A stretch of DNA of 64,000 bases from Polaribacter litorisediminis. GTDB lineage: Bacteria; Bacteroidota; Bacteroidia; Flavobacteriales; Flavobacteriaceae. Each line of letters starts with the position of its first letter. Within the stretch, counting starts at the first letter, position 1. The notes under the pieces were generated by a model. That model was not told where the DNA came from. It ran no database searches and saw nothing but the letters and a program-made list of their open reading frames with translations. The stretch lies in assembly GCF_019968605.1 (NCBI RefSeq), contig NZ_CP082966.1:3771501-3835500 (forward strand). The letters run 5' to 3'. Positions 1 to 22,353 of this stretch are shown here, one piece after another. Position numbers and translations under genes: made by a program.

Positions 1-235
1 CAATAAACATTGTTGACTTGACATTTTTAAAGTAAGAAATGGTATTCAAGTTCCCGTTTGGGTAAAATTGGGTTTTTAAACCATACATTTTATCTGTTTT
101 ATTATATAGAATTTCTCTTATGTCTCCATTTGTATAATAACTGATTTTTTCTTTAATATTATTATCACTACAAGATGAAGAAAAAAATATTAAAGATATT
201 ATTAATATTAAATTAATAATTTTTATTCCCCTCAT
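1..235 (-). CDS. MORN-like repeat lipoprotein, second copy, C-terminus outside window
   Basis: The 366 bases at the left edge match 17899-18264 base for base as far as I compared them, so this is the N-terminal half of the same small lipoprotein encoded at 17696-18133. It has a start at 235, a hydrophobic signal segment and a lipobox ending SSSC. The rest of the gene lies left of the window. The shared segment stops within a few bases after the AAC at 364-366, where the next attC-like repeat differs, so this is a second copy of a whole cassette, not a random duplication. Function unknown. Confidence 0.75.
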   Translation of the reverse strand, partial: MRGIKIINLILIISLIFFSSSCSDNNIKEKISYYTNGDIREILYNKTDKMYGLKTQFYPNGNLNTISYFKNVKSTMFI

Positions 236-363
236 ATTTGCTTGAATTTTTTTTAGGTTTAATTTCCTCTTTTGGACTAATTCTCAATTTTTTCTAACTT
301 TAAAAGCAAAAAGTATATTTAAAGAACTTTCGTTTTAGATTAACTTTTCCGCTAGTTTTTTAC

Positions 364-487
364 AACGTTGTTGTATATGGTTTGTTGCGTGGTTTAAGCA
401 CCTAATATAGCAAATACAAACCGAATAGAAAATCCGCGAGGATTTTCGTAAGTAGGCTAGAACTAGCAATAAATTATATACGGTGTT
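364..487 (-). repeat. attC-like cassette recombination site 1
   Basis: Imperfect palindrome from AAC to GTT. The outer arms are GTTGTATAT and ATATACGGTGTT. The centre is the hairpin GAAAATCC-GCGA-GGATTTTC. It closes the cassette holding 501-1088 and abuts the partial cassette 1-366. Same hairpin subtype as sites 10, 11, 17, 18 and 24. Confidence 0.85.
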
Positions 488-500
488 ACCACACGTTTTT

Positions 501-1088
501 TTATTCAATTTTATTAATTTCCGAAATATATTTCAATCTTAAATTTTCAATTCGATTCGATAAATTTAATTTGGCATTTAATGATTCGATTTTCGTTTTG
601 TCGTTTTTAAAAAACTCAATTTTTTGTTCGTGTTTTTTTGTCACATCATCACTTAATGCTTTTAACTTATCAAGAAATTTTGATTGTAATAATGATTCTT
701 TTGTTGTTCTGTCAGATTCTCGATAATATAGGTCGAGTAAACTTTGGAAATTTTTAGTCCAATCTTCTTTGCTTAATTCTGAAATATTTTCGTCAAACTT
801 TTCTATTTTAAACTCTCCAATTTGATAATTATCAGACCAAAAATCCAAGTTGTTATTTTCAGTTTTTTCTATGTCTAAATAATTGTTTAAATATTCAGCC
901 AATTTAACTTTCAGTTCCGCTTTTTTTTCAATTCCGATTAATTCAAGTTCAAACCTTTTGTATTTATTTGGTTCTAACTTTCTTGGATAACTTTCCATAT
1001 TTGAAAGAACTAATTTTAAATCACTGCTGTTTTGCTCGTCAATAATTTCGAGTAAAATAAAATTTATATTTGTTCCTACGATGTTCAT
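501..1088 (-). CDS. hypothetical cassette protein with C-terminal coiled coil
   Basis: 195 residues. I chose the ATG at 1088, 15 bases inside the cassette boundary, rather than the longer frame that runs back through the attC-like repeat. No signal peptide or membrane segment. The last 70 residues are rich in K, E and L in a pattern suggesting a helical coiled coil. The cassette ends are GTTACCACAC (485) and GTGTGGTAAC (1105), perfectly complementary. I do not recognise a family. Presumably cytosolic. Confidence 0.7.
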   Translation of the reverse strand: MNIVGTNINFILLEIIDEQNSSDLKLVLSNMESYPRKLEPNKYKRFELELIGIEKKAELKVKLAEYLNNYLDIEKTENNNLDFWSDNYQIGEFKIEKFDENISELSKEDWTKNFQSLLDLYYRESDRTTKESLLQSKFLDKLKALSDDVTKKHEQKIEFFKNDKTKIESLNAKLNLSNRIENLRLKYISEINKIE

Positions 1089-1102
1089 TTCAAATGTGTG
1101 GT

Positions 1103-1285
1103 AACGGTTAGTATAAGAATAGTAAGGGATTAAAAACGCACTTACTTTTCGGTTTAGCACTTAGCCAAATTTACAATTTTACCGTTATTTTTCTTTTAAC
1201 CGTCAAATTGTAAATTTGGCGGACTTTGTTAATATGTACCAACTTTGGGTTCGGCACTTAACCCTTATTATTTTTATACATTGTT
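1103..1285 (-). repeat. attC-like cassette recombination site 2 (long form)
   Basis: At 183 bp this is the longest site in the array. The outer stem pairs GTATAAGAATAGTAAGGG with CCCTTATTATTTTTATAC. Inside it a 16 bp perfect arm, GCCAAATTTACAATTT, pairs with AAATTGTAAATTTGGC. The primary sequence is unlike most other sites but the fold is the same. Confidence 0.8.
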
Positions 1286-2104
1286 AGCCACTGGCTTTTC
1301 TATTCGGTCATTATTTATAGCACAAACAATCGCTTGATTCATTGTGTTATACAATTCTGTTGAAAGTTCATTATATTTTTTATTCGTTTCTTCATTCTCA
1401 AATCCCATATCATTCCAAGAGCCCATTCCGCCAAAAACAAAAGCCTTACTTGCGGATAAAAGTAACTGACGATTTTGTAAGTCATAATTCTTTATACTTA
1501 TTAAATCGTTGTGATAAAAGTCGACTTCTGGTTTTTCTGAATTCAAGGTTTCTTTGGCTTTCTCAAATATATTTCCCCAATTTTCAGTTGTTTCTTTAAA
1601 CGCAAAATCTGTTATTTTTTCAAGAATGCTATTTAGTTCGTTACGTGTCGTTTTTAAGTCAAATTGTTGATTTCGAGTTGGCTGTTTTTCGACTGCTTTC
1701 CCATATGTCACTTGCCAAGGTTTTTCAGTCAAATTTTTGTCGTGATTCCAATTACCAATCCAAAAATCAGAGTGGTTTGGATATACAGTTTCTATAAACC
1801 AATTTCCACCTCCGCCAACAAATCCGGCCAATTGATGGTCGTTTTCCTTTTCAGTTTGATGAAATAGACGAAGTTTAGTGCAACCATTTTTTTTAAGATT
1901 TCCAAACCAATCTAATGGATTTTTTGCTGTGATTATTTCCTTCTTTGCTGTGAAAAAATTCTTTTTCTTAATTTCTCTAAAATCTACAAAATCGCAAAAT
2001 TGAAAAGACGAGTTTTCAGGATAAAATTCAGTCAGTTTTCCGTTTCTCAAAAATTCATTTCCAAAAGCGGTAATTGTGATAATTTGTACTAAAGTTCCTG
2101 TCAT
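1274..2104 (-). CDS. hypothetical cassette protein, 276 aa
   Basis: Starts at an ATG 25 bases inside the cassette and ends inside attC-like site 2, so the last residues (PVANNV) are encoded by the recombination site. No membrane segment. There is a GGGGNWF motif near residue 98 and a C-terminal FGGMGSWNDMGF stretch. I do not recognise the family. Cassette ends GTTAGCCAC and GTGGCTAAC are complementary. Confidence 0.7.
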   Translation of the reverse strand: MTGTLVQIITITAFGNEFLRNGKLTEFYPENSSFQFCDFVDFREIKKKNFFTAKKEIITAKNPLDWFGNLKKNGCTKLRLFHQTEKENDHQLAGFVGGGGNWFIETVYPNHSDFWIGNWNHDKNLTEKPWQVTYGKAVEKQPTRNQQFDLKTTRNELNSILEKITDFAFKETTENWGNIFEKAKETLNSEKPEVDFYHNDLISIKNYDLQNRQLLLSASKAFVFGGMGSWNDMGFENEETNKKYNELSTELYNTMNQAIVCAINNDRIEKPVANNV

Positions 2105-2128
2105 TCTCGATTTTTTCAGCTTGTGGCT

Positions 2129-2255
2129 AACGTGTTTGTGTTATGGAAAGTTGCGGTTTTGTGTGCGAGGAATTTCCAACGGAAATTCAGAAGTACGCAA
2201 AATTGCAACTAACTTTGATTAAGCACTAAAGTAGCAATTTTTTATACACGGTGTT
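2129..2255 (-). repeat. attC-like cassette recombination site 3
   Basis: 127 bp, commonest subtype: AACGTGTTTGTG, then GTTGCG, central hairpin GGAATTTCC-AAC-GGAAATTC, then GCAAC, and TATACACGGTGTT at the far end. It closes the gene-less cassette to its right. Confidence 0.85.
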
Positions 2256-2599
2256 GCAAGTAGTATTTTTTTTTCAGTTTTTAATTCCGATTTATTTGTT
2301 TTCAAGCTTTTTAAAATTCCGCATTTGAGTGATTTTTTTTAGCATTCAGATTTCCCGTATTTTGCTAAATTCCGCAAACTTGCTAATTCCGATTTCGAGT
2401 AAGAATTCCGTAATCTTGGTTTCCGACTTTGAGTGAATTCACACGTTTAAAATTCCACAAACAAGCTAAAATTCCGAAATGAATTTTTGAATAGCGAGAG
2501 ACTGTTCAGTACTTTTAAAATTCCATTTTTTCCACTTTAAAACTCAAGAGTTTCGAACCGAAAATTATTCGATTTTGAGTGGTTTCCGCTATTACTTGC
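2256..2599. other. gene-less cassette
   Basis: A complete cassette by its ends (GTTGCAAGTA at 2253 and TACTTGCAAC at 2602) with no credible ORF on either strand. It is rich in scattered AATTCCG and TTTGAGT words and contains ATAGCGAGAGACTGTTC near 2491. That word matches TTAGCGAGAGAGTGTTC in the tandem gene-less cassettes at 18388 and 18894. The shared word suggests a non-coding RNA or a protein-binding function rather than decay alone. Confidence 0.6.
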
Positions 2600-2725
2600 A
2601 ACGGTCCGCGCATAACATAAGTGGCGACTTAAAATGCGCAATCTTTTCGGTTAAACTTTAAGTTTCTAAAAATACCAAAATTTTCGTTTCAATCACAAAT
2701 CTCGCCATTTTTGTTATGCGCTGTT
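2600..2725 (-). repeat. attC-like cassette recombination site 4 (divergent sequence)
   Basis: 126 bp with its own arm sequence: GCGCATAACATAAGTGGCGA pairs with TCGCCATTTTTGTTATGCGC. It keeps the AAC and GTT ends but shares almost no primary sequence with the common subtype, which supports selection on the fold. Confidence 0.8.
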
Positions 2726-2736
2726 ACCTGTAGGCT

Positions 2737-3195
2737 TTATTCGTTCATTACAGATTTCGTTTGTCTTTCCAAATCTTCAATTCCATTATATTTCTTAAAA
2801 TCTAAATTTTTTTCAAGCGTTTTCAATTCAGTAATTAATTCGATTATCAAGTCTAAAGGTTCAGATTCAAATCCGAACATATTTTGGTCGAATTGAGTTC
2901 CGATTAAAAGTCCATCATTTTCCATTCCGACACAAAAGTTTTCCATAAATTCAGACAACTTAATTTCAACAACTTGATATTTTTTCCAACCATCTTTTAT
3001 GCAAGATTTCGCTCTAACTTTTTCCGCCCAAAAACAAATCATTCCAATTGGATTTCCATCTTCATCATCATAATGTACAGAAGTTGAAGTTGCATATCCT
3101 TTTTTATTTTTTAAAGCGTAAACTATTTCAGATTCGCAAACAGTTTTCACGAAGTTCAAATGTCTATTTTTTACTGTAATATGGTTTTGTATCAT
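2737..3195 (-). CDS. hypothetical cassette protein, 152 aa
   Basis: Soluble 152-residue protein, ATG about 20 bases inside the cassette, stop just before the GTT at 2723-2725. It has a mixed alpha/beta pattern with a YDDEDGNPIG stretch near residue 43. I recognise no family. Cassette ends GTTACCTGTA and TACAGGTAAC are complementary. Confidence 0.7.
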   Translation of the reverse strand: MIQNHITVKNRHLNFVKTVCESEIVYALKNKKGYATSTSVHYDDEDGNPIGMICFWAEKVRAKSCIKDGWKKYQVVEIKLSEFMENFCVGMENDGLLIGTQFDQNMFGFESEPLDLIIELITELKTLEKNLDFKKYNGIEDLERQTKSVMNE

Positions 3196-3215
3196 CGTTG
3201 TTTTAGCTTACAGGT

Positions 3216-3340
3216 AACGTTGTTGTGTAATGAATGTTGCGTTTTTGTGAACGAGGAATTTCCGTAGGAAATTCATAAGTTTGCAAAGAAGCAACAAGTT
3301 TTAGTTTAACCAAATATAGCAATATTTAATACACGGTGTT
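3216..3340 (-). repeat. attC-like cassette recombination site 5
   Basis: 125 bp, common subtype with central hairpin GGAATTTCC-GTA-GGAAATTC and the GTTGCG/GCAAC inner pair. On the minus strand it carries TATATTTG, which resembles a Bacteroidetes -7 box and might fire into the next cassette (weak). Confidence 0.85.
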
Positions 3341-3368
3341 ACCACACGTTTTTTTTTCCGCCGTTTAA

Positions 3369-3896
3369 TTAATTCAATTTTTTATTTTCTAAAATATCAA
3401 ATCCGAAAAGTCCATTCCGAGTTTCAAATTCAACATTTTTGTATAAATTCATTTTCTCAAAATATTCGTTTTTGAATACCAATTCTTTGCTTTTCCCCTT
3501 ATAAACTATTATAAATACTGGTTGTTCTTTATCTGTTCTACCTTTAGTTGTTCCACGAATTGTAGTTCGTCCAATAATTTCATAATTTTCAGTTTTTACT
3601 TCTTTTCCAGCAAAATAAAAATTTGTCAGCATAAAGATTGAGCAAGCAATAAATCCAAATCCAATTATGTAATGCATCCAAGAATATAAATATAATTCAA
3701 ATCCGCTATATTCATAAGTCCGCTTGTAATTTTTAAAATCCGCTAAAAAACTCAAAATTCCGACTATTGTAATTATTGATGCAGGAATTTTCCAGTTAAT
3801 AAATGTATTTCGATAAATTTCTATCTGAAAATACATTAATATTATTCCAATGAAGAAAATTAATGTATAAAATATCTTTCGTTGTTTTTTCGTCAT
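3369..3896 (-). CDS. membrane protein of unknown function
   Basis: 175 residues with three hydrophobic segments (about residues 8-25, 34-52 and 74-95) followed by a soluble, beta-rich tail of about 75 residues. The tail is reminiscent of the extracytoplasmic part of DUF3592-like proteins, but this is only a resemblance. Cassette ends GTTACCACAC and GTGTGGTAAC equal those of the cassette at 485-1105 although the genes differ. Confidence 0.7.
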   Translation of the reverse strand: MTKKQRKIFYTLIFFIGIILMYFQIEIYRNTFINWKIPASIITIVGILSFLADFKNYKRTYEYSGFELYLYSWMHYIIGFGFIACSIFMLTNFYFAGKEVKTENYEIIGRTTIRGTTKGRTDKEQPVFIIVYKGKSKELVFKNEYFEKMNLYKNVEFETRNGLFGFDILENKKLN

Positions 3897-3914
3897 TTTT
3901 GGTCAATGTGTGGT

Positions 3915-4040
3915 AACGTGTTTGTGTTATGAAAAGTTGCGTATTTGACAACGAGGAATTTCCAACGGAAATTCTGAAGTTGGCAAAAAAGCAACAACTT
4001 TTGGTGAAGCTAAAAATAGCAATTTTTTATACACGGTGTT
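3915..4040 (-). repeat. attC-like cassette recombination site 6
   Basis: 126 bp, common subtype. Identical to site 15 (12862-12987). With the adjoining gene it forms one of the duplicated cassettes. The outer stem pairs GTGTTATGAAAAGTTGC with GCAATTTTTTATACAC. Confidence 0.9.
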
Positions 4041-4051
4041 GGCAACAGGCT

Positions 4052-4579
4052 TTATAAATCAATTTTTTCAAAATAATTATTCAATAATTCATTTTTTTCA
4101 CTTATTGATTTCAGTGTTTTGTCTAAAATGTAAATTATAACTATAGCTATTAAATTTATTTGAATAAAATTATTTATATCTTGACTTATACTCAAGTCAA
4201 ATTCACTTGCAATTCCTAAGTTAAAGGTCAAATTATTTTCAGTCCAATTATAACCCAACATAAAATTTCCTCCAGAGGTAAACATATAGGTTATTCCATT
4301 AAAGGAAATTCCTATTATTTGTATAAATTGAATAATCCAAGAATGAGAAATTCCTTTTTCAGTTTTTTTGAAAAGTATTATTCCAGCAAAGATTGAATAC
4401 GAATAAAATAATATTGTTATTAAAAAAATAATAACGCTGTAAGAATTCATTTGAAAACCTTGGAGAAGAAACCAAACTATTAAACCTATTCCTGTTATTC
4501 CTCCTATAATCTCTAAAATTCCAATTCCTTTCAGTATGTTTCTTTTCTTCCTAATTTCTTCTTCCAAATCTTTTCTCAT
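4052..4579 (-). CDS. four-TM membrane protein, copy 1 of a duplicated cassette
   Basis: 175 residues: a charged N-terminus (MRKDLEEEIRKKRN) followed by four hydrophobic helices near residues 18-40, 48-70, 84-108 and 140-160. The same protein is encoded at 12999-13526 and the whole cassette (3915-4606) is repeated at 12862-13553. Function unknown. Cassette ends GTTGGCAAC and GTTGCCAAC are complementary. Confidence 0.75.
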   Translation of the reverse strand: MRKDLEEEIRKKRNILKGIGILEIIGGITGIGLIVWFLLQGFQMNSYSVIIFLITILFYSYSIFAGIILFKKTEKGISHSWIIQFIQIIGISFNGITYMFTSGGNFMLGYNWTENNLTFNLGIASEFDLSISQDINNFIQINLIAIVIIYILDKTLKSISEKNELLNNYFEKIDL

Positions 4580-4603
4580 ATACGTATTTTTTTGCTTGTT
4601 GCC

Positions 4604-4729
4604 AACTTGTTTGTGTATTGAAAGTTGCGTTTTAAATGAACGGCTATTTTCCGAAGGAAAATAGAAGTTTATAAAAAAGCAACTACTTTTAATTAAGCAC
4701 TAATCTAGCAATTTTTAATACACGTTGTT
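4604..4729 (-). repeat. attC-like cassette recombination site 7
   Basis: 126 bp with central hairpin CTATTTTCC-GAA-GGAAAATAG. Identical to site 9 (6508-6633). The GTT at 4727-4729 overlaps the stop codon of the gene it closes. Confidence 0.9.
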
Positions 4730-5243
4730 ACCCAAAGTTATTGTTTCGTTCAAATTCATTCATAATTAGTTTTTCCAATTTCTTAAAACTACAATTTAGA
4801 TTTGTTGTCGTTAATGTAATTGGTGAACCATAATCTTTCAAATTCTTTCTCATAAGTTTCGATTGAAGAGAATTTTTCGCTTTTTTGATATATTTTTCAG
4901 AGTTTTCCAAGTCAACTAATATAAATTTGATAGACATTATTTCAATAATTCTGATGTCAATAATATCTTCCCATTCAATTAATCCAATACTATTAGAGTT
5001 AGTATAGTCGGTTATTCCTTTTGAATCAATAATTAATCCAGAATTTTTTTCAAATAATTTTTTTATTCCAATTATTAAAGTGAAACCAAAAAAAATTATG
5101 GCTAAGATTCCTAAAATCTGATTAGATTCAGATTCTTTTTCAGAAACTACCATCCATATTCCTAAAGCTACAAACCCAATTGAACCAAGAATATTTAATA
5201 ATACTTTCTTTTTACTTATTGAAATTTCAATTTTTTTATTCAT
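4728..5243 (-). CDS. STM3941-like membrane protein, copy 1 of a duplicated cassette
   Basis: 171 residues: cytosolic N-terminus, two membrane helices (about 12-33 and 42-62) and a soluble beta-rich domain containing GLIIDSKGI and IEWEDIIDI. This layout fits the STM3941 family, a small bacterial membrane protein family of unknown role. The TAA stop lies in the cassette-end word GGGTAAC, so gene and recombination site overlap. An identical copy is at 6632-7147. Confidence 0.75.
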   Translation of the reverse strand: MNKKIEISISKKKVLLNILGSIGFVALGIWMVVSEKESESNQILGILAIIFFGFTLIIGIKKLFEKNSGLIIDSKGITDYTNSNSIGLIEWEDIIDIRIIEIMSIKFILVDLENSEKYIKKAKNSLQSKLMRKNLKDYGSPITLTTTNLNCSFKKLEKLIMNEFERNNNFG

Positions 5244-5278
5244 TTAAAAACATTTTCTTGGATTTGTAAATTTTGGGT

Positions 5279-5402
5279 AACGTGCTAAGTATATGGTAAG
5301 CAAGGGTTAGAATAACTTACTATTTCGGGCATTGAAAAAATAAATAAATATTAACTAATTTAAAAAAGCAACCTGTACCCCTTGTTTATTATATACTATG
5401 TT
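5279..5402 (-). repeat. attC-like cassette recombination site 8
   Basis: 124 bp with arms AGTATATGGTAAGCAAGGG and CCCCTTGTTTATTATATACT. Nearly identical to site 13. Both close the two homologous four-gene cassettes, so this attC subtype belongs to that cassette family. Confidence 0.85.
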
Positions 5403-5420
5403 GTGTACAGTACTATTCAG

Positions 5421-5564
5421 ATGCCAAATGATGTTTCAGACGAATTTAAGGAATATTGTAAAGAAAATAACATTACTTTAAAAAAAAACGGACGTGTTAT
5501 GGTTTTTCCTCCGATGTTTATGGGGGCAACTAGTAATTCAAGCCATGATTCTTTAAATGACTAA
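5421..5564 (+). CDS. small protein, first gene of four-gene cassette A
   Basis: 47 residues from the ATG at 5421, 19 bases inside the cassette (GTTGTGTACA at 5400). It reads against the usual direction of the array and ends convergently with the next gene, overlapping it by 35 bases. Acidic N-terminus, then an MVFPPMFMG stretch. No homologue recognised. The equivalent position in the sister cassette holds 11055-11279. Confidence 0.45.
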   Translation: MPNDVSDEFKEYCKENNITLKKNGRVMVFPPMFMGATSNSSHDSLND

Positions 5565-5958
5565 ATACATTTAAAGAATAAGAATTAATTTCATGTTGAA
5601 TATTTATATTATTTATTTTTAATTCTTTGGATTTATTTTCAAAAAAATATTTTTCGTGATTTGAAAATGCTTTTTTTACAAAATCTAGTATTCCAGAAGT
5701 AGATGTTTTATCATGTATTGGTTTAAGATTGGCTCTTAACTCAGATTCATAAACAAAAACTTTATTATTATTAGTTTTGTTGGTAATCAGTGTTCTTGAC
5801 CTTAATCCGTAATCAAAAACTTTATTTTCGTTATATTCTTTTTTGGAATATATTTCTGATTCACAAAAAGTATTAGTAATTAATTCGGTCGAGTTTTCTA
5901 ATTGACTTAGGCTAAATTCAAATTCTAAAATTTTAAATTGCTTGTTAAGTATTTCCAT
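5530..5958 (-). CDS. hypothetical protein, second gene of four-gene cassette A
   Basis: 142 residues, soluble and beta-rich in the first 80. It starts only 16 bases from the divergent plus-strand gene at 5975. That spacer is nearly identical in the sister cassette (11491-11506), although the proteins on each side differ. It ends inside 5421-5564. Family not recognised. Confidence 0.6.
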   Translation of the reverse strand: MEILNKQFKILEFEFSLSQLENSTELITNTFCESEIYSKKEYNENKVFDYGLRSRTLITNKTNNNKVFVYESELRANLKPIHDKTSTSGILDFVKKAFSNHEKYFFENKSKELKINNINIQHEINSYSLNVFSHLKNHGLNY

Positions 5959-5974
5959 AGTACTATTTTATATT

Positions 5975-6088
5975 ATGAGTTGGTTAAAAAAAATAGATTT
6001 CGAAAGTCCAAAATTCAGATTTTACACAAGTTTAGTTGCTTTAATTATTTCAATAATAGCGTTAGTATCGACACTATTAGAGCAATAA
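5975..6088 (+). CDS. 37-aa single-TM miniprotein, third gene of cassette A
   Basis: Starts MSWLKKIDF and ends with a membrane helix (LVALIISIIALVSTLL). It overlaps the convergent gene at 6045-6461 by 44 bases. The sister cassette has a 45-residue protein starting MNWFKS at the same place with the same upstream sequence and the same overlap, which argues that it is a real gene. The size and topology resemble type I toxins or small membrane antitoxins, but that is inference. Confidence 0.5.
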   Translation: MSWLKKIDFESPKFRFYTSLVALIISIIALVSTLLEQ

Positions 6089-6461
6089 TAGCTAAGTAAA
6101 ATCCCCACTTTCCATATTCAAAACTTTCGATTGTTCCCTTTCGGATTATTTCTTCTTGAACTTCTTTTCGTATATTTTTAATTTCATTATTATCCTCTTT
6201 TTTATTCTGTTTTTTAAGATATTGTAACCAACCTCCCTTTTCTAATACTTCTTCTCCAAAACTATTTATATGACAAACTTCTCCATTAAGAGTAATCAAT
6301 CCTTTACTTTTCATGTATTCAGAAAGTAGTTCAGTTTGCATATCCCAACTTTCAATTTTTACACCTTCTTCATTTATGAAATCGGATTCATACATTCTTT
6401 TAGAATCACTTTCATTTAGTAATTTTAAATTTATATCAGTAAGTATATTGTATCTTTTCAT
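6045..6461 (-). CDS. tail-anchored protein, fourth gene of cassette A
   Basis: 138 residues. The N-terminal 80 look like a small winged-helix-type fold ending in GGWLQYLKKQ. A charged coiled segment follows, then one C-terminal membrane helix (residues 119-136). The gene at 11595-12131 has the same plan (GGFKQYF, coiled coil, C-terminal helix). Cassette right end GTACACAAC lies at 6510. Function unknown. Confidence 0.65.
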   Translation of the reverse strand: MKRYNILTDINLKLLNESDSKRMYESDFINEEGVKIESWDMQTELLSEYMKSKGLITLNGEVCHINSFGEEVLEKGGWLQYLKKQNKKEDNNEIKNIRKEVQEEIIRKGTIESFEYGKWGFYLAIIALIVSILTLLLK

Positions 6462-6507
6462 TCAATTTAAGTCTACCACCCACTATGTTATAGTTTGTAT
6501 TGTACAC

Positions 6508-6633
6508 AACTTGTTTGTGTATTGAAAGTTGCGTTTTAAATGAACGGCTATTTTCCGAAGGAAAATAGAAGTTTATAAAAAAGCAACTACTTTTAATTAA
6601 GCACTAATCTAGCAATTTTTAATACACGTTGTT
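6508..6633 (-). repeat. attC-like cassette recombination site 9
   Basis: Identical to site 7 over its full 126 bp. It lies 3' of the second copy of the STM3941-like gene, showing that each palindrome moves with the gene whose stop it follows. Confidence 0.9.
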
Positions 6634-7147
6634 ACCCAAAGTTATTGTTTCGTTCAAATTCATTCATAATTAGTTTTTCCAATTTCTTAAAACTACAATT
6701 TAGATTTGTTGTCGTTAATGTAATTGGTGAACCATAATCTTTCAAATTCTTTCTCATAAGTTTCGATTGAAGAGAATTTTTCGCTTTTTTGATATATTTT
6801 TCAGAGTTTTCCAAGTCAACTAATATAAATTTGATAGACATTATTTCAATAATTCTGATGTCAATAATATCTTCCCATTCAATTAATCCAATACTATTAG
6901 AGTTAGTATAGTCGGTTATTCCTTTTGAATCAATAATTAATCCAGAATTTTTTTCAAATAATTTTTTTATTCCAATTATTAAAGTGAAACCAAAAAAAAT
7001 TATGGCTAAGATTCCTAAAATCTGATTAGATTCAGATTCTTTTTCAGAAACTACCATCCATATTCCTAAAGCTACAAACCCAATTGAACCAAGAATATTT
7101 AATAATACTTTCTTTTTACTTATTGAAATTTCAATTTTTTTATTCAT
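6632..7147 (-). CDS. STM3941-like membrane protein, copy 2 of a duplicated cassette
   Basis: Same 171 residues as 4728-5243. The 678-base unit 6508-7185 repeats 4604-5281. After the shared GGGTAACG the copies diverge (TTGTTG here, TGCTAA in copy 1), and on the other side identity starts at AAC. The match is too exact for old paralogues, so the duplication is recent and fits re-insertion or copying of one mobile cassette. Confidence 0.75.
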   Translation of the reverse strand: MNKKIEISISKKKVLLNILGSIGFVALGIWMVVSEKESESNQILGILAIIFFGFTLIIGIKKLFEKNSGLIIDSKGITDYTNSNSIGLIEWEDIIDIRIIEIMSIKFILVDLENSEKYIKKAKNSLQSKLMRKNLKDYGSPITLTTTNLNCSFKKLEKLIMNEFERNNNFG

Positions 7148-7182
7148 TTAAAAACATTTTCTTGGATTTGTAAATTTTGGGT

Positions 7183-7824: not shown

Positions 7825-7854
7825 AGTTGGTCGTTTTTTTTTGTAATTGTTGCT

Positions 7855-15006: not shown

Positions 15007-15032
15007 ATTCAGGGTTTCGTTAAATTAGCCAC

Positions 15033-15157: not shown

Positions 15158-15169
15158 GGCTGTAGTTTT

Positions 15170-15700
15170 TTAATATGTTCTTATAACTTCGTCATATGTT
15201 CTACACCAATTTATAATTTTTCCTTTGTCATTAAATTCAATATGATAAGTCTCGTATAAATATTTATTCGTTATATGAATATTCACAAAAATGCGTTCAG
15301 TTCCGTTTATTTCTTTGTGTGGTGCTGTTATCTGTAATTTTGGATAAGTTCCGTTTCCATTCCTTTTGATTTTGAATTTCTTTTTGTCCAAATTCGAGAA
15401 ATCAAGTTCAAATCTATCGGAATCAATATTTAATTGAGTTTCTAAATAAGATTCCAATTCTTTAAATTGAGTTTTACTTTTCCAACTTATTCCCAAACAG
15501 ATTGGATTGTAAAATCCCGTTCTTGGTGGATGAAAATCCATAACATATGGATAAACTTTTATTTTCTTTTTTGAAGGAAAAGAATCAATTATTGTTGATT
15601 GATAAAAGTCAAACGCAATTTGTTCATAAAATGGAAATTCGGTTTGCGAGATTCCAATTCCGCAATTGAGTAAGAAAGTCAGAAGTATTGCTTTTTTCAA
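15170..15700 (-). CDS. secreted protein of unknown function, 176 aa
   Basis: A signal peptide (KKAILLTFLLNCGIGISQ) is followed by a soluble domain of about 155 residues. The frame has no ATG before the signal peptide and begins at TTG (15700). Probably periplasmic. About 110 bases of non-coding cassette sequence precede it (15701-15810), in which I see nothing. Cassette ends GTTGGCTGTA and TACAGCCAAC. Confidence 0.65.
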   Translation of the reverse strand: MKKAILLTFLLNCGIGISQTEFPFYEQIAFDFYQSTIIDSFPSKKKIKVYPYVMDFHPPRTGFYNPICLGISWKSKTQFKELESYLETQLNIDSDRFELDFSNLDKKKFKIKRNGNGTYPKLQITAPHKEINGTERIFVNIHITNKYLYETYHIEFNDKGKIINWCRTYDEVIRTY

Positions 15701-15810
15701 ATCACTTTATTTAGTATTCAATTCCAATTTAATTCAGTTTGCTTTTATAGAAAAGTCTTAATTAGTAAACACTATATTTCGTTTAGTTAACGGACTTTTA
15801 AATTACAGCC

Positions 15811-15933
15811 AACGGTTTGGCTATGCGTAGTGCGGGATTAAAAAGCACTTCACTTTCAGCCAGTTGTTATGTGTTTTAATATTCATTTACTTTCAATTTA
15901 GCACCAAAACCCGCATTACGTATAGCCGTTGTT
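15811..15933 (-). repeat. attC-like cassette recombination site 19 (divergent sequence)
   Basis: 123 bp with an 18 bp arm GGCTATGCGTAGTGCGGG pairing with CCCGCATTACGTATAGCC at 16 of 18 positions. No sequence similarity to the common subtype, but the same position, length and AAC/GTT ends. Confidence 0.8.
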
Positions 15934-15947
15934 GTGTGCCGTATTTT

Positions 15948-17348
15948 TTAATGTTTTGATTTAAATCCGTTCGAGAAACTTCCTGAATTATTTTCTCCTT
16001 TATAGTTTATCTGAACGCTGTATGATTTTCCCTTTTCTAACTTTTCTGTCTTTACCGTGAATAAGTTTATTCCTTTTTTAGACTTTGTTTTTAATGAACC
16101 GATTACTTCATCATTTTCATAATCCTTGATTTCAATTTCAACGTCTAATTGGTCTAAAAAGTAAATTTCTAATTCTACTTTCTTGTCTGAAATACTGTAA
16201 ATATCTCTAATGTTGGTTTCGTCCGTTATGTATGTTCTTTCCCGTTTTGTCCCTTTTTCTATTCCCTTAATTTTTGAATAGGTAATTATCCCTTGTACGT
16301 TTCCAAACTCCACAAACGGCATTGGAAAAAACGGAAGAATAAAATATCGGTAAGGGTCAGGTGTTGCTTGAACAATTTTTTCATAGGTAAATCCATTGAT
16401 TGTGTCTTTACTTACTCCTTGAAGAAAAAAAACCTTTTGTCCGTTTTGCTCAATAAGTTTGAGTTCTGTTGAGTATTCCTTAAATGGAATAAACTGATTA
16501 CCATAATAGTAACCACTATCGGAAACATGCATTAAAAATTCTTCTGGTCCATCTTTTGAACCGCTTAGATAGTTGTAGCCATCAATCTCCATTTTAAGAG
16601 ACTTATTACCGTCAATTATTGTATCTCCAATGTACCTGACGTTTTTAAATTGTTTGTCTTGGTATTCAGCCAACCCTGTTGAGTCGTTGTACCATTTTCT
16701 TCGATAAAACAATTGGATTTCATCTCCTGGTTGAATGTCAAATCGATTGCTGGTTTGAAAATCGTATTTAATTCCTTCTGAAATGTCATTGTAATTGTCT
16801 CCGTAAAGCTGTTTTGTATAAAACTGTCCATTACTTGAAACCGCTAATGTTTTCAATTCAGGAATAATTACAGCATAAATTTCTGAATTGTCAGTAGTGT
16901 AATACTTTCTTGGTGTTTTGTCGGTTGCTATTAAGCTATCTCTTGGGTAACTCCTTCTTGTGTCGATATATTCGAGTGAAGTTTTTACTAGGTTTCCGAA
17001 AAGTGTAGCTGTTTGTTCTTCCGTTTTGTTGTAGTCAATATTGTGAACCGTTTCAAAGTTTTTATTGAGAAGTTTATAATTACCGTTATCAAAGGATTCG
17101 AAATAGATTTCGGTTTTTTCAACGTCAGAATAGTCAACAAAGTCTTCCATTTTGATTTTTAAGAAATGTCTATTTTCTATCAGTGTGTCTTTTAAGTCTG
17201 TTCTTACTTGCAGTCCGATAAACTCATTCTTTTGGTCAAAGTAGGTTGCTCGAACATAGATTTTCGATTCAGCCATTTCTTTTCTGCTCTCTTGTCCAAA
17301 GCTGATTTGAGTTAGAAAAAGTAAAGTCTGAAGTATTATTATTCTCAT
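15948..17348 (-). CDS. large secreted cassette protein, 466 aa
   Basis: The largest cargo gene. I start it at the ATG at 17348, which opens a signal peptide (RIIILQTLLFLTQISFGQ); the longer frame would be encoded by the attC-like repeat. The mature part is beta-rich. Its C-terminal 90 residues resemble a small beta-sandwich like those that follow secreted Bacteroidetes proteins, without a clear T9SS signal. Cassette ends GTTGTGTGCC and GGCACACAAC. Function unknown. Confidence 0.7.
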   Translation of the reverse strand: MRIIILQTLLFLTQISFGQESRKEMAESKIYVRATYFDQKNEFIGLQVRTDLKDTLIENRHFLKIKMEDFVDYSDVEKTEIYFESFDNGNYKLLNKNFETVHNIDYNKTEEQTATLFGNLVKTSLEYIDTRRSYPRDSLIATDKTPRKYYTTDNSEIYAVIIPELKTLAVSSNGQFYTKQLYGDNYNDISEGIKYDFQTSNRFDIQPGDEIQLFYRRKWYNDSTGLAEYQDKQFKNVRYIGDTIIDGNKSLKMEIDGYNYLSGSKDGPEEFLMHVSDSGYYYGNQFIPFKEYSTELKLIEQNGQKVFFLQGVSKDTINGFTYEKIVQATPDPYRYFILPFFPMPFVEFGNVQGIITYSKIKGIEKGTKRERTYITDETNIRDIYSISDKKVELEIYFLDQLDVEIEIKDYENDEVIGSLKTKSKKGINLFTVKTEKLEKGKSYSVQINYKGENNSGSFSNGFKSKH

Positions 17349-17374
17349 TAATCGGGTTTCTTTATATGGCACAC

Positions 17375-17500
17375 AACGTGGTTGTGTATTGAAAGTTGCG
17401 GTTTTGTGAACGAGGAATTTCCAGCGGAAATTCAGAAGTTTGCAAAAGAGCAATAAGTTTTAGTTTATGCTAAATATAGCAATTTACCATACACGGTGTT
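17375..17500 (-). repeat. attC-like cassette recombination site 20
   Basis: 126 bp, common subtype with hairpin GGAATTTCC-AGC-GGAAATTC and outer arms GTTGTGTATTGAAAGTTGCG / AGCAATTTACCATACACGG. Confidence 0.85.
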
Positions 17501-17695
17501 GTAAAATGCGGGTTTAAATTTCCTATTTATTTTTTCAGTCTGATTAATTTTCTTTTTTTGTAATAATTTTTGTTTCCAATTTTTTGGTTTTCTAAATTGC
17601 TAATTTGAGTAAATATTCCACAAATAAAATAATTCCGAAAGTTGCTCAATTCCGTAATTTTGGTTCTTCAGAGTTTGAGTTATGGAGTTAATTAT
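17501..17695. other. non-coding 3' part of a cassette, related to gene-less cassettes
   Basis: No ORF. It contains ATTCCGAAAG, CAATTCCGTAATTTTGG and GAGTTTGAGTT words like those in 2256-2599 and 18388-18767. It lies between the MORN-protein stop and attC-like site 20, so it would be a long 3' untranslated stretch. Confidence 0.5.
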
Positions 17696-18133
17696 TCAAT
17701 CTTCTACACCTTCTTTACAATCTTCAATCGTTAACTTTCCTTCTTTAGAGTAATGGTACCAGATTCCAACTCTGATGCCTTTTTTAAAGTTTCCCTTGTT
17801 CATTAATTTTCCGTTTCCGTAATAATAAACCCACAAGCCTTCGTATAAATCATTTTCTATATTCCCTTTCATTAAAATTTGTCCACTTTCATAAAAACCA
17901 ATAAACATTGTTGACTTGACATTTTTAAAGTAAGAAATGGTATTCAAGTTCCCGTTTGGGTAAAATTGGGTTTTTAAACCATACATTTTATCTGTTTTAT
18001 TATATAGAATTTCTCTTATGTCTCCATTTGTATAATAACTGATTTTTTCTTTAATATTATTATCACTACAAGATGAAGAAAAAAATATTAAAGATATTAT
18101 TAATATTAAATTAATAATTTTTATTCCCCTCAT
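17696..18133 (-). CDS. MORN-like repeat lipoprotein
   Basis: 145 residues. A signal peptide with lipobox (SSSC, Cys near residue 22) is followed by four or five MORN-like units with the NG.L...G....G.W pattern (YYYGNGKLMNKGNFKKG, GIWYHYSKEGKLT). Proteins of this build are often annotated as YwqK-type antitoxins; the repeat fold is visible, the role is not. A second, partial copy begins this window at 1-235. Cassette ends GTTGTAAAA and TTTTACAAC. Confidence 0.75.
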   Translation of the reverse strand: MRGIKIINLILIISLIFFSSSCSDNNIKEKISYYTNGDIREILYNKTDKMYGLKTQFYPNGNLNTISYFKNVKSTMFIGFYESGQILMKGNIENDLYEGLWVYYYGNGKLMNKGNFKKGIRVGIWYHYSKEGKLTIEDCKEGVED

Positions 18134-18261
18134 ATTTGCTTGAATTTTTTTTAGGTTTAATTTCCTCTTTTGGACTAATTCTCAATTTTTTCTAACTTTA
18201 AAAGCAAAAAGTATATTTAAAGAACTTTCGTTTTAGATTAACTTTTCCGCTAGTTTTTTAC

Positions 18262-18387
18262 AACGTTGTTGTATAAAAATAGTTGCGGTTTTGTCAACGA
18301 GGAATTTCCAACGGAAATTCAGAAGTTGGCAAAAATGCAACTGCCTTTGATTAAGGACTAATTTAGCAATTTTTTTTATACGGTGTT
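18262..18387 (-). repeat. attC-like cassette recombination site 21
   Basis: 126 bp, common subtype, identical to site 22. Each belongs to one copy of a tandem gene-less cassette. Confidence 0.9.
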
Positions 18388-18767
18388 GTAATTAGTTGCG
18401 AAACATTTGAGTAAGCACAATTTAATTCCTTTTTCAACTTTTTCTCATTTGAGTAAATTCCTAAATTTTAATTTTAAAAGACAGTTTTCTAAAAAAAAAG
18501 CTGGGAAATTTCGCTTTTTGGGATTTTGCTAAATTCAAACATTTTAATTCCGCCAAGATTTTTCATTCCGCAATTTTGGAATTCCGTTTCAACATTTTTT
18601 CATAAGTAGAAATTCCGAAAAACTGCTAAATTCCGCATTTTTAAAAACCTTTAATTAGCGAGAGAGTGTTCCGCAAATTTCGCAATTTCTCGAACTTTAG
18701 AAACTTATAAATTCAGTATTTAACTAATTTTTATTGAGATTATGGATTTTCCTGAGCAATTAATTAC
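18388..18767. other. gene-less cassette, tandem copy 1
   Basis: Ends GTTGTAATTA and TAATTACAAC. No ORF of reasonable length. With its site it forms a 506 bp unit repeated exactly at 18768-19273. It carries TTAGCGAGAGAGTGTTC, also found (with changes) in 2256-2599, and many AATTCCG words. A structured RNA or a regulatory cassette is possible. Confidence 0.7.
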
Positions 18768-18893
18768 AACGTTGTTGTATAAAAATAGTTGCGGTTTTGT
18801 CAACGAGGAATTTCCAACGGAAATTCAGAAGTTGGCAAAAATGCAACTGCCTTTGATTAAGGACTAATTTAGCAATTTTTTTTATACGGTGTT
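18768..18893 (-). repeat. attC-like cassette recombination site 22
   Basis: Identical to site 21, offset by 506 bases. Confidence 0.9.
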
Positions 18894-19273
18894 GTAATTA
18901 GTTGCGAAACATTTGAGTAAGCACAATTTAATTCCTTTTTCAACTTTTTCTCATTTGAGTAAATTCCTAAATTTTAATTTTAAAAGACAGTTTTCTAAAA
19001 AAAAAGCTGGGAAATTTCGCTTTTTGGGATTTTGCTAAATTCAAACATTTTAATTCCGCCAAGATTTTTCATTCCGCAATTTTGGAATTCCGTTTCAACA
19101 TTTTTTCATAAGTAGAAATTCCGAAAAACTGCTAAATTCCGCATTTTTAAAAACCTTTAATTAGCGAGAGAGTGTTCCGCAAATTTCGCAATTTCTCGAA
19201 CTTTAGAAACTTATAAATTCAGTATTTAACTAATTTTTATTGAGATTATGGATTTTCCTGAGCAATTAATTAC
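18894..19273. other. gene-less cassette, tandem copy 2
   Basis: Exact repeat of 18388-18767 as far as I can read it. Adjacent identical cassettes indicate repeated insertion of the same circle or unequal exchange. Confidence 0.7.
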
Positions 19274-19399
19274 AACGTTGTTTTGTATGGAAAGTTGCGA
19301 TTTTGTTAACGAGGAATTTCCAGCGGAAATTCAGAAGTTTGCAAAAAAGCAACAAGTTTTAGTTTAAATCAAATATAGCAATTTTTTATACAAGGTGTT
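19274..19399 (-). repeat. attC-like cassette recombination site 23
   Basis: 126 bp, common subtype with hairpin GGAATTTCC-AGC-GGAAATTC. The minus strand carries TATATTTG near the far arm, a possible -7 box. Confidence 0.85.
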
Positions 19400-19417
19400 A
19401 GGCGCTGTGCTTTTCAG

Positions 19418-20272
19418 TCACAATTTTTCTTTAATTGCTTTTTTCCAAAAATAAATTCCAAAAACACAAGTCACGATAGCAAACATAATTCCGTTTTCGC
19501 CAAGCCAATGTTCCGCTCCTTCATTTTTTATTGTTAATTCGGGTAATATTTTTTGAATATATACATTACTTACTGCGTGAAAAATTACTGCTGGCCATAG
19601 GCTTTTAGATTTAAAAGTGTAATAAGTCATAATGAACGACATTGAGACTATAACAACATAAAATGTCGTCAATTCCAGGATTACATTTTCGCCATAATAT
19701 ACAATTAATGGCCAGTGCCAAGTTGCCCAAATAATTCCACTAAAAATGGAAACACCTGTAAAGGAAAGAACTTTTCTTAATTCATAAATAAAAAAACCTC
19801 GCCACCCAATCTCTTCCCCTAAAGTTGTTGCTGCTGCTCTTATTACTTCAATAGTTCCTAATAAGGTAATAGATATGATTGCAATCGATGTTGGATTTAG
19901 AGTTCCTATTCCAATCAAACCAAGTTCTTTTCCCCAATCTGTAATTGCTTCTTCATTTGTCAAACTTCCAAAGCCAAAAACCCAAATTAGTATATAAGTG
20001 ATTAAGCCATATAAAGCAGGAATAAAATAAGAAAGTCGAATATATTTCCAATTTCCCCAATTCCAATTTAGTGAAGTAATAGGGCGTTTTATCAGTTTTA
20101 GCGTAATTATGGTAGCTATTGCAGGACACCACATTAGTCCTCCAATATATATTCGTGATGGATATAAATTAACTATCGCATAATGAAATAAAGAGCTTAA
20201 AATTGTAACAATAGCGAGGAAAATAAAGATTGTATTCCAAGTTTTTTTTCGTTCCGTTAGATTTTCTTGCAT
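19418..20272 (-). CDS. CPBP family intramembrane metalloprotease
   Basis: 284 residues, about eight membrane helices. The CPBP (Abi/CAAX protease) motifs are in order: GEEIGWRGFF near residue 152 (catalytic Glu pair and Arg), WATWHWPL (His) near 186, and FHAVSN near 232. The family cleaves substrates within the membrane, or acts in bacteriocin immunity in some hosts; the substrate here is unknown. This is the second cassette from the recombinase and the one with the clearest enzymatic assignment. Cassette ends GTTAGGCGC and GCGCCTAAC. Confidence 0.88.
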   Translation of the reverse strand: MQENLTERKKTWNTIFIFLAIVTILSSLFHYAIVNLYPSRIYIGGLMWCPAIATIITLKLIKRPITSLNWNWGNWKYIRLSYFIPALYGLITYILIWVFGFGSLTNEEAITDWGKELGLIGIGTLNPTSIAIISITLLGTIEVIRAAATTLGEEIGWRGFFIYELRKVLSFTGVSIFSGIIWATWHWPLIVYYGENVILELTTFYVVIVSMSFIMTYYTFKSKSLWPAVIFHAVSNVYIQKILPELTIKNEGAEHWLGENGIMFAIVTCVFGIYFWKKAIKEKL

Positions 20273-20336
20273 TTAAGTTTTCTGATTGGTTTGTTAATGG
20301 AAGACGATGAGTTCGTAGTTTTGTTACATTGCGCCT

Positions 20337-20460
20337 AACGTGTTTGTATATGGTTTGTTGCGTGTTTTAAGCACCTAATTTAGCAAATACAAACCGAATA
20401 GAAAATCCGCGAGGATTTTCGTAAGTAGGCTAGAACTAGCAATAAATTATATACGGTGTT
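20337..20460 (-). repeat. attC-like cassette recombination site 24
   Basis: 124 bp, hairpin GAAAATCC-GCGA-GGATTTTC, almost identical to site 1. The attC nearest the recombinase. Confidence 0.85.
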
Positions 20461-20473
20461 GCCCACAGTATTT

Positions 20474-21112
20474 TTATTCCACTTTGATTTGTAATTCAGT
20501 CCAATTTAGATTCTTGGTTTCTATTTCGTTTAAATTAATTCCATTGTCGCTTAAAAACTTGTCAAAATCCGCAATTTCTTTATTATTACTCGGGTTTAAT
20601 TCATCAAACGGAATGCTTAAAATGAATTTCTGATTCTTTTCCGATATTCCAAAAACATCGTCATTAGTTGCTATTTTTTCTCGTAAATCATAATCGTTAT
20701 AAATCAGATATGTTGATTCACGATTTTTGTCAATTGATATTCCGATTGAGTAATCAGCATAATTTTGGTCTTCTGGTGGTGTTCCTAAAAACCAATAAAC
20801 AAGATTGTGATAATTATAAGCAGTTAATAATTCGTTTTCAGGTAATTTTATTAAAGTCCAAGAACCAAAATCCGTTTTATTAATTGTAAAATTCACAGGT
20901 TCTTCTGCTGTAAATATTTCCGTCCATTCTTGAATTTTTGGTTGTATGTCTTTTAGACTTTTTCCTTTGACTAAAATAAAGCGATTATATGTTCCTTTTT
21001 CAGTCGTTTCTTTTGAGAATTCAGCCATTTCATTTTCGGATTTGGTTTGAGATTTACACGAAAAACTCGTTAAAATCAGAAGCGTAATTAATATTCTCGA
21101 AGTTTTTCTCAT
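20474..21112 (-). CDS. lipoprotein of unknown function, first cassette of the array
   Basis: 212 residues, signal peptide with lipobox TSFSC (Cys near 19), then a soluble acidic domain. The start codon lies about 10 bases inside the cassette core GTTGCCCAC, adjacent to the attI-like region, so by integron logic this is the most recently inserted cassette. Related lipoproteins occur in Bacteroidetes but I know no function. Cassette ends GTTGCCCACA and TGTGGGCAAC. Confidence 0.72.
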   Translation of the reverse strand: MRKTSRILITLLILTSFSCKSQTKSENEMAEFSKETTEKGTYNRFILVKGKSLKDIQPKIQEWTEIFTAEEPVNFTINKTDFGSWTLIKLPENELLTAYNYHNLVYWFLGTPPEDQNYADYSIGISIDKNRESTYLIYNDYDLREKIATNDDVFGISEKNQKFILSIPFDELNPSNNKEIADFDKFLSDNGINLNEIETKNLNWTELQIKVE

Positions 21113-21121
21113 ATTGTGGGC

Positions 21122-21228
21122 AACTTGTTTATATGCGGAACTTTTGTCCTATTTTGCTCCTAACTTGGCAGGATATGCAGAGGTTTAGTGTCTTTATATA
21201 CTACTTAAATTTTCATAAATATAGTGGA
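21122..21228 (-). other. attI-like primary insertion region
   Basis: The 107 bp between the first cassette core (AAC at 21122-21124) and the recombinase stop codon. It lacks the attC palindrome. It has two direct repeats 40 bp apart, AACTTG-N3-ATATGC (21122-21136) and AACTTG-N5-ATATGC (21162-21178), comparable in arrangement to the direct repeats of class 1 attI. That it is the insertion site is inferred from position. Confidence 0.6.
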
Positions 21229-22353
21229 TTAAAATAGATCATCAAACGGATTTTTAATTTTTTTTAGACTTGTCTCTGTAACGTGTGTATAAATCATAGT
21301 TGTTTTAGGGCTGCTATGACCTAAAAGTTCTTGTATATATCTGATATCTGTTCCTTTTTCTAATAAATGAGTGGCAAAACTATGTCTCAAAGAATGTAAT
21401 GTGGCTTTTTTTCTAATGTCTGCTCTAAATAGCGCATTTTTTAATACTTTTTGAGCACTAGTGTTACTGTATTTCCCACCTTTTTGCCCTTCAAATAGGT
21501 ATTTTTTAGGTTTATAAGCAATGTAATATTCTCTTAAGATTTTTACGAACGCAGAAGACAGGAGTGTATATCTATCTTTTTTCCCTTTTGCTTGTTTAAT
21601 ATGAATTAACATCCTTTTGCTATCAATATCGGTAATTTCTAAATTAATAGCCTCACCAATTCTTAAACCAGCAGAATATAATAAACTTAGAAGAGCTTTG
21701 TGTTTTAGATTTGTAATGGTATTAAAAATTGATTTTATTTCATCAGTACTAAGTATAATTGGTAATTTTTTTTCTTTTTTGGGTCTTTCAATATGGATTT
21801 GGTCATAAGCATATCCTTTATATTCAAAAAATTTCTTTATACCACTAATAAATTGATTTTGATAAGAGATGGATTTACTAGGCTTATAAATATAATCATA
21901 ACAAAAAGCTTCAACAATCTTTGTAGAAAATAAATCCACTTTTTTAAGAAGTGCATACTTTATATAAGTAGCAGTTACATCCACGTAAGTATTTACTGTA
22001 TTTTCACTCAAACGCTTTTGAAATAGCCATTTCTCAAATTTTTGAAGTTCTATTTGATATTCAGTTGGAATTTCATCGATTAAATGGGAATTTCTTTTCT
22101 CTTCTATTTTACTTTTTTCAATAAAAGAGTGTAATTGAGAATAGTCAACAGTCCAATTAGTGTTTTTTAAATAACTAAAGATAATTCTTAAATTTTTTAA
22201 GGAAAGTTCAATATAAAAACATTTTAAAGTCTGACTCCAAAGAACATTTTCAAGTTTTTTGAGATGCTCTTTTATTTCATCATCATACTTAAAACGAATT
22301 GCCAAAACATTTTTATTTCGGTGTTTAGCTGTATTTAAAATTATTTTTTTCAT
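21229..22353 (-). CDS. tyrosine recombinase, putative cassette integrase
   Basis: 374 residues from the ATG at 22353 (an upstream frame adds 14). It has an N-terminal extension of about 90 residues, a SAM-like core-binding domain (about 95-190), and a C-terminal catalytic domain with Arg231 (GLRIGE), Lys258 (KGKKDRYT), His320 and Arg323 (HSLRHSF), His346 (LLGH) and nucleophile Tyr355 (MIYTHV). All catalytic residues are present. Between KKDRYT and HSLRH there are only about 55 residues, so the extra helix insertion typical of IntI integrases has no room and the enzyme looks Xer-like. It has the same orientation as the cassettes, with its 3' end nearest the insertion site. Confidence 0.9.
   Translation of the reverse strand: MKKIILNTAKHRNKNVLAIRFKYDDEIKEHLKKLENVLWSQTLKCFYIELSLKNLRIIFSYLKNTNWTVDYSQLHSFIEKSKIEEKRNSHLIDEIPTEYQIELQKFEKWLFQKRLSENTVNTYVDVTATYIKYALLKKVDLFSTKIVEAFCYDYIYKPSKSISYQNQFISGIKKFFEYKGYAYDQIHIERPKKEKKLPIILSTDEIKSIFNTITNLKHKALLSLLYSAGLRIGEAINLEITDIDSKRMLIHIKQAKGKKDRYTLLSSAFVKILREYYIAYKPKKYLFEGQKGGKYSNTSAQKVLKNALFRADIRKKATLHSLRHSFATHLLEKGTDIRYIQELLGHSSPKTTMIYTHVTETSLKKIKNPFDDLF

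Follow-up and report, generated by a model that had tools for sequence, protein, structure and literature searches.

An integron-like cassette array with a non-IntI tyrosine recombinase in Polaribacter litorisediminis and other Bacteroidota

The flavobacterium Polaribacter litorisediminis has a closed genome of 4.34 Mb in which a tyrosine recombinase gene stands at the head of a long array of gene cassettes, each with a palindromic site that resembles the attC sites of integrons. The array was studied in a stretch of 64,000 nucleotides (positions 3,771,501 to 3,835,500 of contig NZ_CP082966.1), here called the window, in which all features of the array lie on the minus strand. The recombinase (374 amino acids, 21229-22353) consists of an extra N-terminal domain of about 95 residues followed by SAM-like and catalytic domains. 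Next to it are an attI-like site (21122-21228), in which CATATAAACAAGTT is joined to the first cassette word GCCCACA, and the first cassette (20461-21121), which has GCCCACA as both of its end words and a gene at 20474-21112. The array contains 27 palindromic sites. A covariance model recovered the 24 that an initial annotation had counted in the window, one of which is interrupted by an insertion sequence, and three more lie just to the left. The same annotation had described the attI-like gap and the recombinase pointing in the same direction as the cassettes, and both are as described. It had also placed the start of the array at window base 1; the true start is about 2.3 kb further left, at position 17724 of locus L008, from which the array extends to window position 21121. 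The longest open reading frame (ORF) starting with ATG is in the sense direction in 23/27 cassettes and antisense in none, while four cassettes have no ORF of at least 60 amino acids; the shared direction of nearly all genes, with the site 3' of each, had also been claimed in the initial annotation and is upheld.

The cassettes follow a simple rule. On the coding strand, a cassette consists of GTT-N7-A, the gene and C-N7'-AAC, followed by the site, which closes in GTT, and the words N7 and N7' are complementary. Because a site in the array is flanked by its own N7' and by the N7 of the next cassette, only closure into a circle completes the hairpin. The end words match at 7 of 7 positions in 20 cassettes of the array and at 6 of 7 in six more as well as in the cassette of site 1103-1285 (AGCCACT/AGCCACA), in line with the GTT plus word and complement plus AAC of the initial annotation. 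Across many Bacteroidota loci, counting cassettes that span 100-3,000 nt from one site to the next, the words match at 7 of 7 positions in 169 and at 6 of 7 in 68 (237/257 cassettes); random pairing would give 0.7% and 2.6%, or about 3%. The longest ORF of at least 60 amino acids in these 257 cassettes is sense in 202 and antisense in 11, and 44 have none. Sites start with AAC in 324/328 cases and end with GTT in 317/328, again as first described. Four of 151 covariance-model matches were dropped before sites were counted (two 49-nt fragments in L081, a lone site in L008 and a duplicate of L110). The initial annotation gave the core as GTT(G/A) and held that it does not follow GTTRRRY. The second part stands, as RRRY fits only 21/315 words and the sites do not conform to the integron box RYYYAAC...GTTRRRY; the core itself is better written as R-B-V-N-N-H-M-A after GTT. 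Position 8 after GTT is A in 308/315 words and faces C, or G in 25/237, with pairing failing at this outer position in 235/237.

Most sites measure about 120-130 nt, and some form a longer class of around 185 nt; site structure is conserved more strictly than sequence. In an alignment made from sequence only, the stem pairs in 94.4% of 288 cells, a level reached in 0/500 shuffles, and shifting the alignment by 1-3 columns lowers pairing to 29-45%. Changes on both sides are found in 12/17 stem pairs, with 43 double changes and no single-sided change. This strict pairing without G-T speaks for a DNA rather than an RNA element. An inner stem mismatch is also conserved, with A in 150/150 aligned sites facing C in 147/150. 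Folding was carried out on circle-closed sites, as structures were mixed when individual sites were folded without words. The fold is predicted to be stabler on the strand opposite the coding strand in 218/223 sites (by a mean of 4.6 kcal/mol), and stabler when closed with the site's own word than with a foreign word in 215/223. Since A.C mismatches become T.G on the other strand, it is the strand opposite the coding strand that is predicted to fold better. According to the abstract of PMC2727003, IntI integrons use the bottom strand of attC as substrate. A BLAST search of phages with one site found nothing.

The recombinase of the window carries the catalytic residues R231, K256, H320, R323, H346 and Y355. 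The initial annotation had seen no room for the IntI-specific insertion, and the alignments agree: two IntI-specific stretches, of 31 and 11 columns in the alignment with IntI1, are absent, and the alignment with IntI4 likewise shows the IntI-specific insertion to be lacking. The IntI family model TIGR02249 scores the protein at 192 bits (cut-off, 265), and no match above the cut-off exists anywhere in the genome; weaker matches are uninformative, since all 14 control genomes also match below the cut-off. The best profile and structural matches are to XerA and related Xer proteins (PDB 4a8e and 5hxy). The structure was predicted with a confidence (predicted local distance difference test, pLDDT) of 86.7 using 43 sequences, compared with 35 from the single sequence. 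The structural comparison scarcely covers the N-terminal domain (residues 1-95), for which Pfam gave weak leads, HARP in 2/43 members (best E 0.023) and DUF5710 in 8/43 (best E 0.0015), neither of which is used for any claim. No phage match to the recombinase reached 60% identity, and the shorter XerC/D-like proteins of about 300 amino acids (30-36% identity) are encoded by separate genes. A tree of a selected set of 43 proteins groups the array-linked recombinases in a single clade (support 97/94). The 20 array-linked loci in that set were picked after a tree of 84 proteins had been seen, and long-branched and site-less Bacteroidota rows, including L065 and L075, which both have sites, were left out. 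The 84-protein tree itself left out rows with stop codons or fewer than 175 amino acids.

Recombinase and sites are arranged in a fixed manner. Behind the recombinase gene, GTT plus the first cassette's word is present on the 3' side in 44/46 arrays, at a distance of 47-141 nt in 36/46, and TATA occurs at most 16 nt before that GTT in 39/44. By its anatomy, this junction would correspond to an attI site beside an integrase gene and joined to the first cassette. Among 80 named loci that were found by the recombinase alone, 33 have sites, and many of the others end less than 1.5 kb from the gene. The sites at these loci number 117 on the same strand and 3' of the recombinase, none on the opposite strand 3', none on the same strand 5' and three on the opposite strand 5'. 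Where a locus extends for 1.5 kb or more on the 3' side, and with the two 49-nt fragments of L081 set aside, sites are present in 31/36 from Bacteroidota or Ignavibacteriota versus 0/18 from archaea, Patescibacteria and relatives in other phyla.

The two components also occur together across genomes. Of 198 Bacteroidota genomes at least 90% complete, 103 have sites (62/102 genera) and 70 have the recombinase; both are present in 62, the recombinase only in 8, sites only in 41 and neither in 87 (Fisher p 3.5e-15). In the window's genus, all 40 genomes have at least one site. Among the matches listed, the median is 33 sites in the 31 genomes with a family member (at least 38% identity; partial or broken in two of them, G002 and G023) versus 7 sites in the 9 without (p 0.0016). 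Counts per genome are lower bounds at the top of the range, at least 88 for the 40 genomes of the genus and at least 17 for the 198. Twenty-four control genomes were reached through other loci, a small set composed mostly of metagenome-assembled genomes (MAGs) of 0.5-1.9 Mb. Of the 21 from other phyla, 20 gave no site match and one gave two fragments of 46-49 nt; two Ignavibacteria gave three site matches each, and a Dokdonia MAG gave six.

Copies of whole units point to movement. Within the window, the units of the sites at 4604-4729 and 6508-6633 are 100% identical and have different neighbours, and identity is likewise 100% in two other pairs of units; the unit 12862-13550, with its site at 12862-12987, is identical to 3915-4603. 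Two arrays of one genome (G001) share a 1,646-bp unit at 99.9%, and G034 and G001, which are two species, have a common unit of about 600 bp at 94%. For copies between genomes, the best two candidates per genome were scored. The window unit 15033-15813 (site, 15033-15157) has a copy in G295, a different species of the genus, that departs from it at 1 of 782 bp (99.87% identity); outside CAAC at one end and AAC at the other, the flanks of the two are entirely different. A second G295 copy elsewhere is 99.0% identical, with similarity overrunning the core by 12-18 bases, and near-identical units are also present in G305 (98.7%) and G271 (96.8%). The unit of the site at 7183-7308 is 98.7% identical in another species (L146). 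The cleanest copies break at the AAC/GTT core, suggesting that cassettes move as units as they do in integrons. The initial annotation had stated that a static array without gain, loss or shuffling would speak against its proposal; exact unit copies within arrays and between species, one genome being taken per species, argue against such stasis. The G038 array comparison, with almost no common cassette, was not used as evidence of turnover, as identity of locus is not established.

The comparative data suggest that this is very probably a cassette array on the integron plan, in which the neighbouring non-IntI tyrosine recombinase would capture, excise and shuffle cassettes at the AAC/GTT cores. 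The enzyme would cut at GTT, and new cassettes would enter at the attI-like site. Its substrate would be a single folded strand, that opposite the coding strand; one-strand action is proposed because two conserved mismatches, the inner A.C and the outer A.C (A.G in 25/237), weaken the hairpin of the other strand. As in IntI integrons, replication would complete the insertion of such a single-strand substrate. Where the recombinase is missing, arrays would behave like CALINs (clusters of attC sites lacking integron-integrases).

Several observations weigh against this interpretation. The word rule is broken in 20/257 cassettes, and the strand choice is derived wholly from predicted folding energies. 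Sites occur without a recombinase match in 41/198 genomes and the recombinase without sites in 8/198, and the 9/40 genomes of the genus that lack a family member still have 1-25 sites. In the 84-protein tree, the Bacteroidota rows group at only 81/93 and site-bearing rows are interspersed with site-less ones, many of which are truncated where a contig ends. The copy pair of window site 17375 and L008 19476 shares only one arm of the site, a pattern resembling ordinary homologous recombination within it, so that this process probably also plays a part. In several other unit copies, similarity continues for some bases beyond the core. The initial annotation had stated that sites lying in other genomes without a linked recombinase of this clade would speak against its proposal. 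Sites are present in 62/70 recombinase genomes, and at the loci found by the recombinase they lie 3' on the same strand, although 41/198 genomes have sites only, for which CALINs offer a comparison.

The genomes with sites only are also what would be expected if the palindromes were moved by another enzyme, such as a single-strand transposase, with the tyrosine recombinase merely nearby. The strand and side of the sites are, however, fixed relative to the recombinase, and the attI-like junction follows closely behind its gene in 36/46 arrays, making this explanation very unlikely. The hybrid site of the copy pair described above would suit a different explanation, namely that the palindromes act at the RNA level, for instance as terminators, and that the copies arise by homologous recombination between repeats. 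This is less probable still, to the point of being barely credible: single-sided changes such as G-C to G-U are absent from the 288 cells, there is no Rfam match in window 1-22400, terminator-like patterns in window 1-20000 are not above shuffles (9 versus 6.5, standard deviation 2.8), and neither the end words nor the breaking of copies at AAC on both sides is explained.

The most serious alternative is that the array belongs to an ordinary integron lineage whose divergent IntI has lost the insertion and acquired an N-terminal domain, while the attC sites drifted from RYYYAAC/GTTRRRY. The tree that joins IntI and the recombinase clade as sisters is not rejected by the approximately unbiased (AU) test (p-AU 0.531), and a common ancestor with IntI is compatible with that result. 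Against such a descent are the lack of both IntI-specific stretches, the score below the 265-bit cut-off, the rarity of RRRY words (21/315) and the unconstrained trees, which set IntI apart, if weakly. It appears rather unlikely, and it concerns descent only, the mechanism being almost the same. The initial annotation had proposed a separate, integron-analogous system. Its integron-analogous part is supported; the separateness may or may not hold, the sister-group tree not being rejected. Two defining features of IntI integrons were tested for and found absent, so the system is not classed among them. It would work like an integron, and the best name for it is an IntI-less variant of the integron kind.

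The likeness to integrons, including sedentary chromosomal integrons and CALINs, extends over many features. Cassettes mostly consist of one gene and a 3' imperfect palindromic site, with structure conserved over sequence and AAC/GTT cores; end pairing is complete only in the circle; an attI-like joint lies beside the recombinase gene; arrays are long; the predicted fold is stabler opposite the coding strand; and site clusters without a recombinase exist. IntI usually points away from its cassettes. In contrast, the array recombinase points the same way as its cassettes in the 80-locus set, and away from them in the tet(X) loci L178-L181, and it lacks the IntI insertions and has the extra N-terminal domain. 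The sites also differ, in that the word has 7 bases (R B V N N H M) and a conserved mismatch rather than RRRY, and in their length classes and invariant A.C mismatch. The integron plasmid R388 gave no match to the site model. XerA and related Xer proteins are the closest in profile and structure, but their archaeal, Patescibacteria and other-phyla relatives have no such sites behind the gene at the 18 loci with enough 3' DNA. XerC/XerD-dif modules have 28-bp dif-like sites that are recombined by XerC and XerD. The array sites are palindromes mostly of 120-190 nt.

A family member is also found beside a resistance gene, tet(X3). A tBLASTn search with the window recombinase matched TnpF ('XerD') beside tet(X3) on Acinetobacter plasmids, over residues 139-373 only, and TnpF falls within the array-linked clade of the 43-protein tree. 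At these loci (L148, L149 9052-11100), tet(X3) starts with GTT-ATGTGCC-A 171 nt after the TnpF stop, and this GTT is preceded by an inverted repeat and TATA, as at several attI-like sites. TnpF lies just upstream of a cassette start, but differs from the array recombinases in that no attC-like site was found within about 9 kb on either side. For the tet(X4) context of Escherichia coli (L176), no site is among the matches listed at E up to 0.1.

Chromosomal tet(X) of 86-87% identity was found in five genomes, from five genera of one family, when 395 genomes of the window's order were searched. In 5/5 it lies between two same-strand sites, with the word ATGTGCC matching 7/7 at both ends, and the tet(X) unit is 100% identical in L151 and L152, where the neighbouring cassettes differ. 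At the five loci and one Empedobacter plasmid, the word rule is followed at 6 or 7 of 7 positions in 24/29 neighbouring site pairs; the tet(X) words of the plasmid match at only 4/7, which counts against a complete cassette there. A full-length family recombinase (37.5-38.4% identity) is nearby in 3/5 loci and a 271-residue match (40%) in a fourth; in the fifth, L177, none was found near tet(X). The recombinase points away from the cassettes in the four loci L178-L181. Of seven genes examined at L177, EstT, Tet(X), an ABC-F protein, AadS and CatB are above curated cut-offs. EstT, Tet(X) and one AadS are bounded on each side by a site and a matching word, and CatB is reversed inside a 2.4-kb interval with matching words; the cassette-end evidence does not include the ABC-F protein. 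Cassette arrays are the likely route by which tet(X) became mobile, which bears on the question of why 'xerD' recurs beside tet(X). Passages of PMC7473080 and PMC11194056 note xerD beside tet(X) and name no such cassette system.

The balance tips slightly towards a broader view, in which these arrays would form a second class of integron with a non-IntI clade of recombinases, possibly evolved on its own and serving as the main capture platform of Bacteroidota; they would have built multidrug arrays and been the source of the tet(X) cassette for Acinetobacter plasmids. IntI and its attC sites serve both to define integrons and to search for them. With the system in about half of the sampled Bacteroidota genomes, a large mobile cassette pool would have been missed by IntI/attC searches, and comparing IntI with the array recombinase would reveal which protein parts recombination of folded sites really needs. 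No description of this cassette system was found in the literature searched, whose scope lay outside subscription journals and bioRxiv. The passages of PMC8618304 that report integrons from Bacteroidota do not mention it.

Other arrays were seen in passing. Site-rich stretches of about 100-116 kb lie at G038:C1:1079326-1191487, G016:C1:2161485-2277839 and G013:C1:2958057-3056527; these are spans over which many sites are listed. A recombinase lies at one end of the G016 and G013 stretches, and none is among the matches listed for that of G038. A plasmid of Chryseobacterium sp. SNU WT5 (L140 15010-28765) carries a family recombinase followed by six sites on its strand, with genes including Crp/Fnr, RidA and a metallophosphoesterase, a mobile version of the array. 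On a plasmid of Flagellimonas marinaquae (L142 9911-10744), two sites surround a RibD-C-like gene labelled 'dihydrofolate reductase family', which lies beside erm(F) and a xerA gene.

In the window, the site next after the first cassette is at 20337-20460, and the site at 19274-19399 has on its gene side a CPBP/Rce1-like protein (19418-20272). The sites at 18768-18893 and 18262-18387 belong to tandem cassette copies, and the cassette of the site at 17375-17500 has a second copy at the array's left end (L008 19600 to window 364). Further sites lie at 15811-15933, 14186-14309, 13551-13677, 12182-12303, 7855-7980, 3915-4040, 3216-3340, 2600-2725 and 2129-2255. The site at 1103-1285 has a longer loop (183 nt), and at 364-487 the array continues leftward to L008 17724 through the three sites outside the window (L008 17724-17848, 18223-18346 and 19476-19602). 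The sites at 10918-11041 and 5279-5402 belong to multi-gene cassettes with the word GTGTACA. Cassettes with this word (window 5403-6507 and 11042-12181; L008 18347-19475) are related to one another, have several small ORFs on both strands and differ from the one-gene cassettes around them. Known families are few among 18 cassette proteins examined (recombinase and transposase excluded), the matches being DUF2750, the CPBP/Rce1-like protein, weak polyketide-cyclase matches, DUF6843 and MORN_2 repeats, and a scan of 10 window cassette proteins for defence genes gave none. The four cassettes without an ORF of 60 amino acids (window 2256-2599, 18388-18767 and 18894-19273; L008 17849-18222) may carry RNA or nothing expressed.

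The same genome has a second small array (L110, G000:C1:2983677-2990100) with a 41% identical recombinase and four sites 3' on its strand. The interrupted site of the window (8592-10410) contains an insertion sequence (8597-10286) that encodes a DDE transposase and is flanked by a 4-bp duplication, ACGG. A 99% copy of this insertion sequence at G000:C1:2990097-2991792 abuts the end of the second-array site 2989975-2990100, and the element may target attC-like hairpins.

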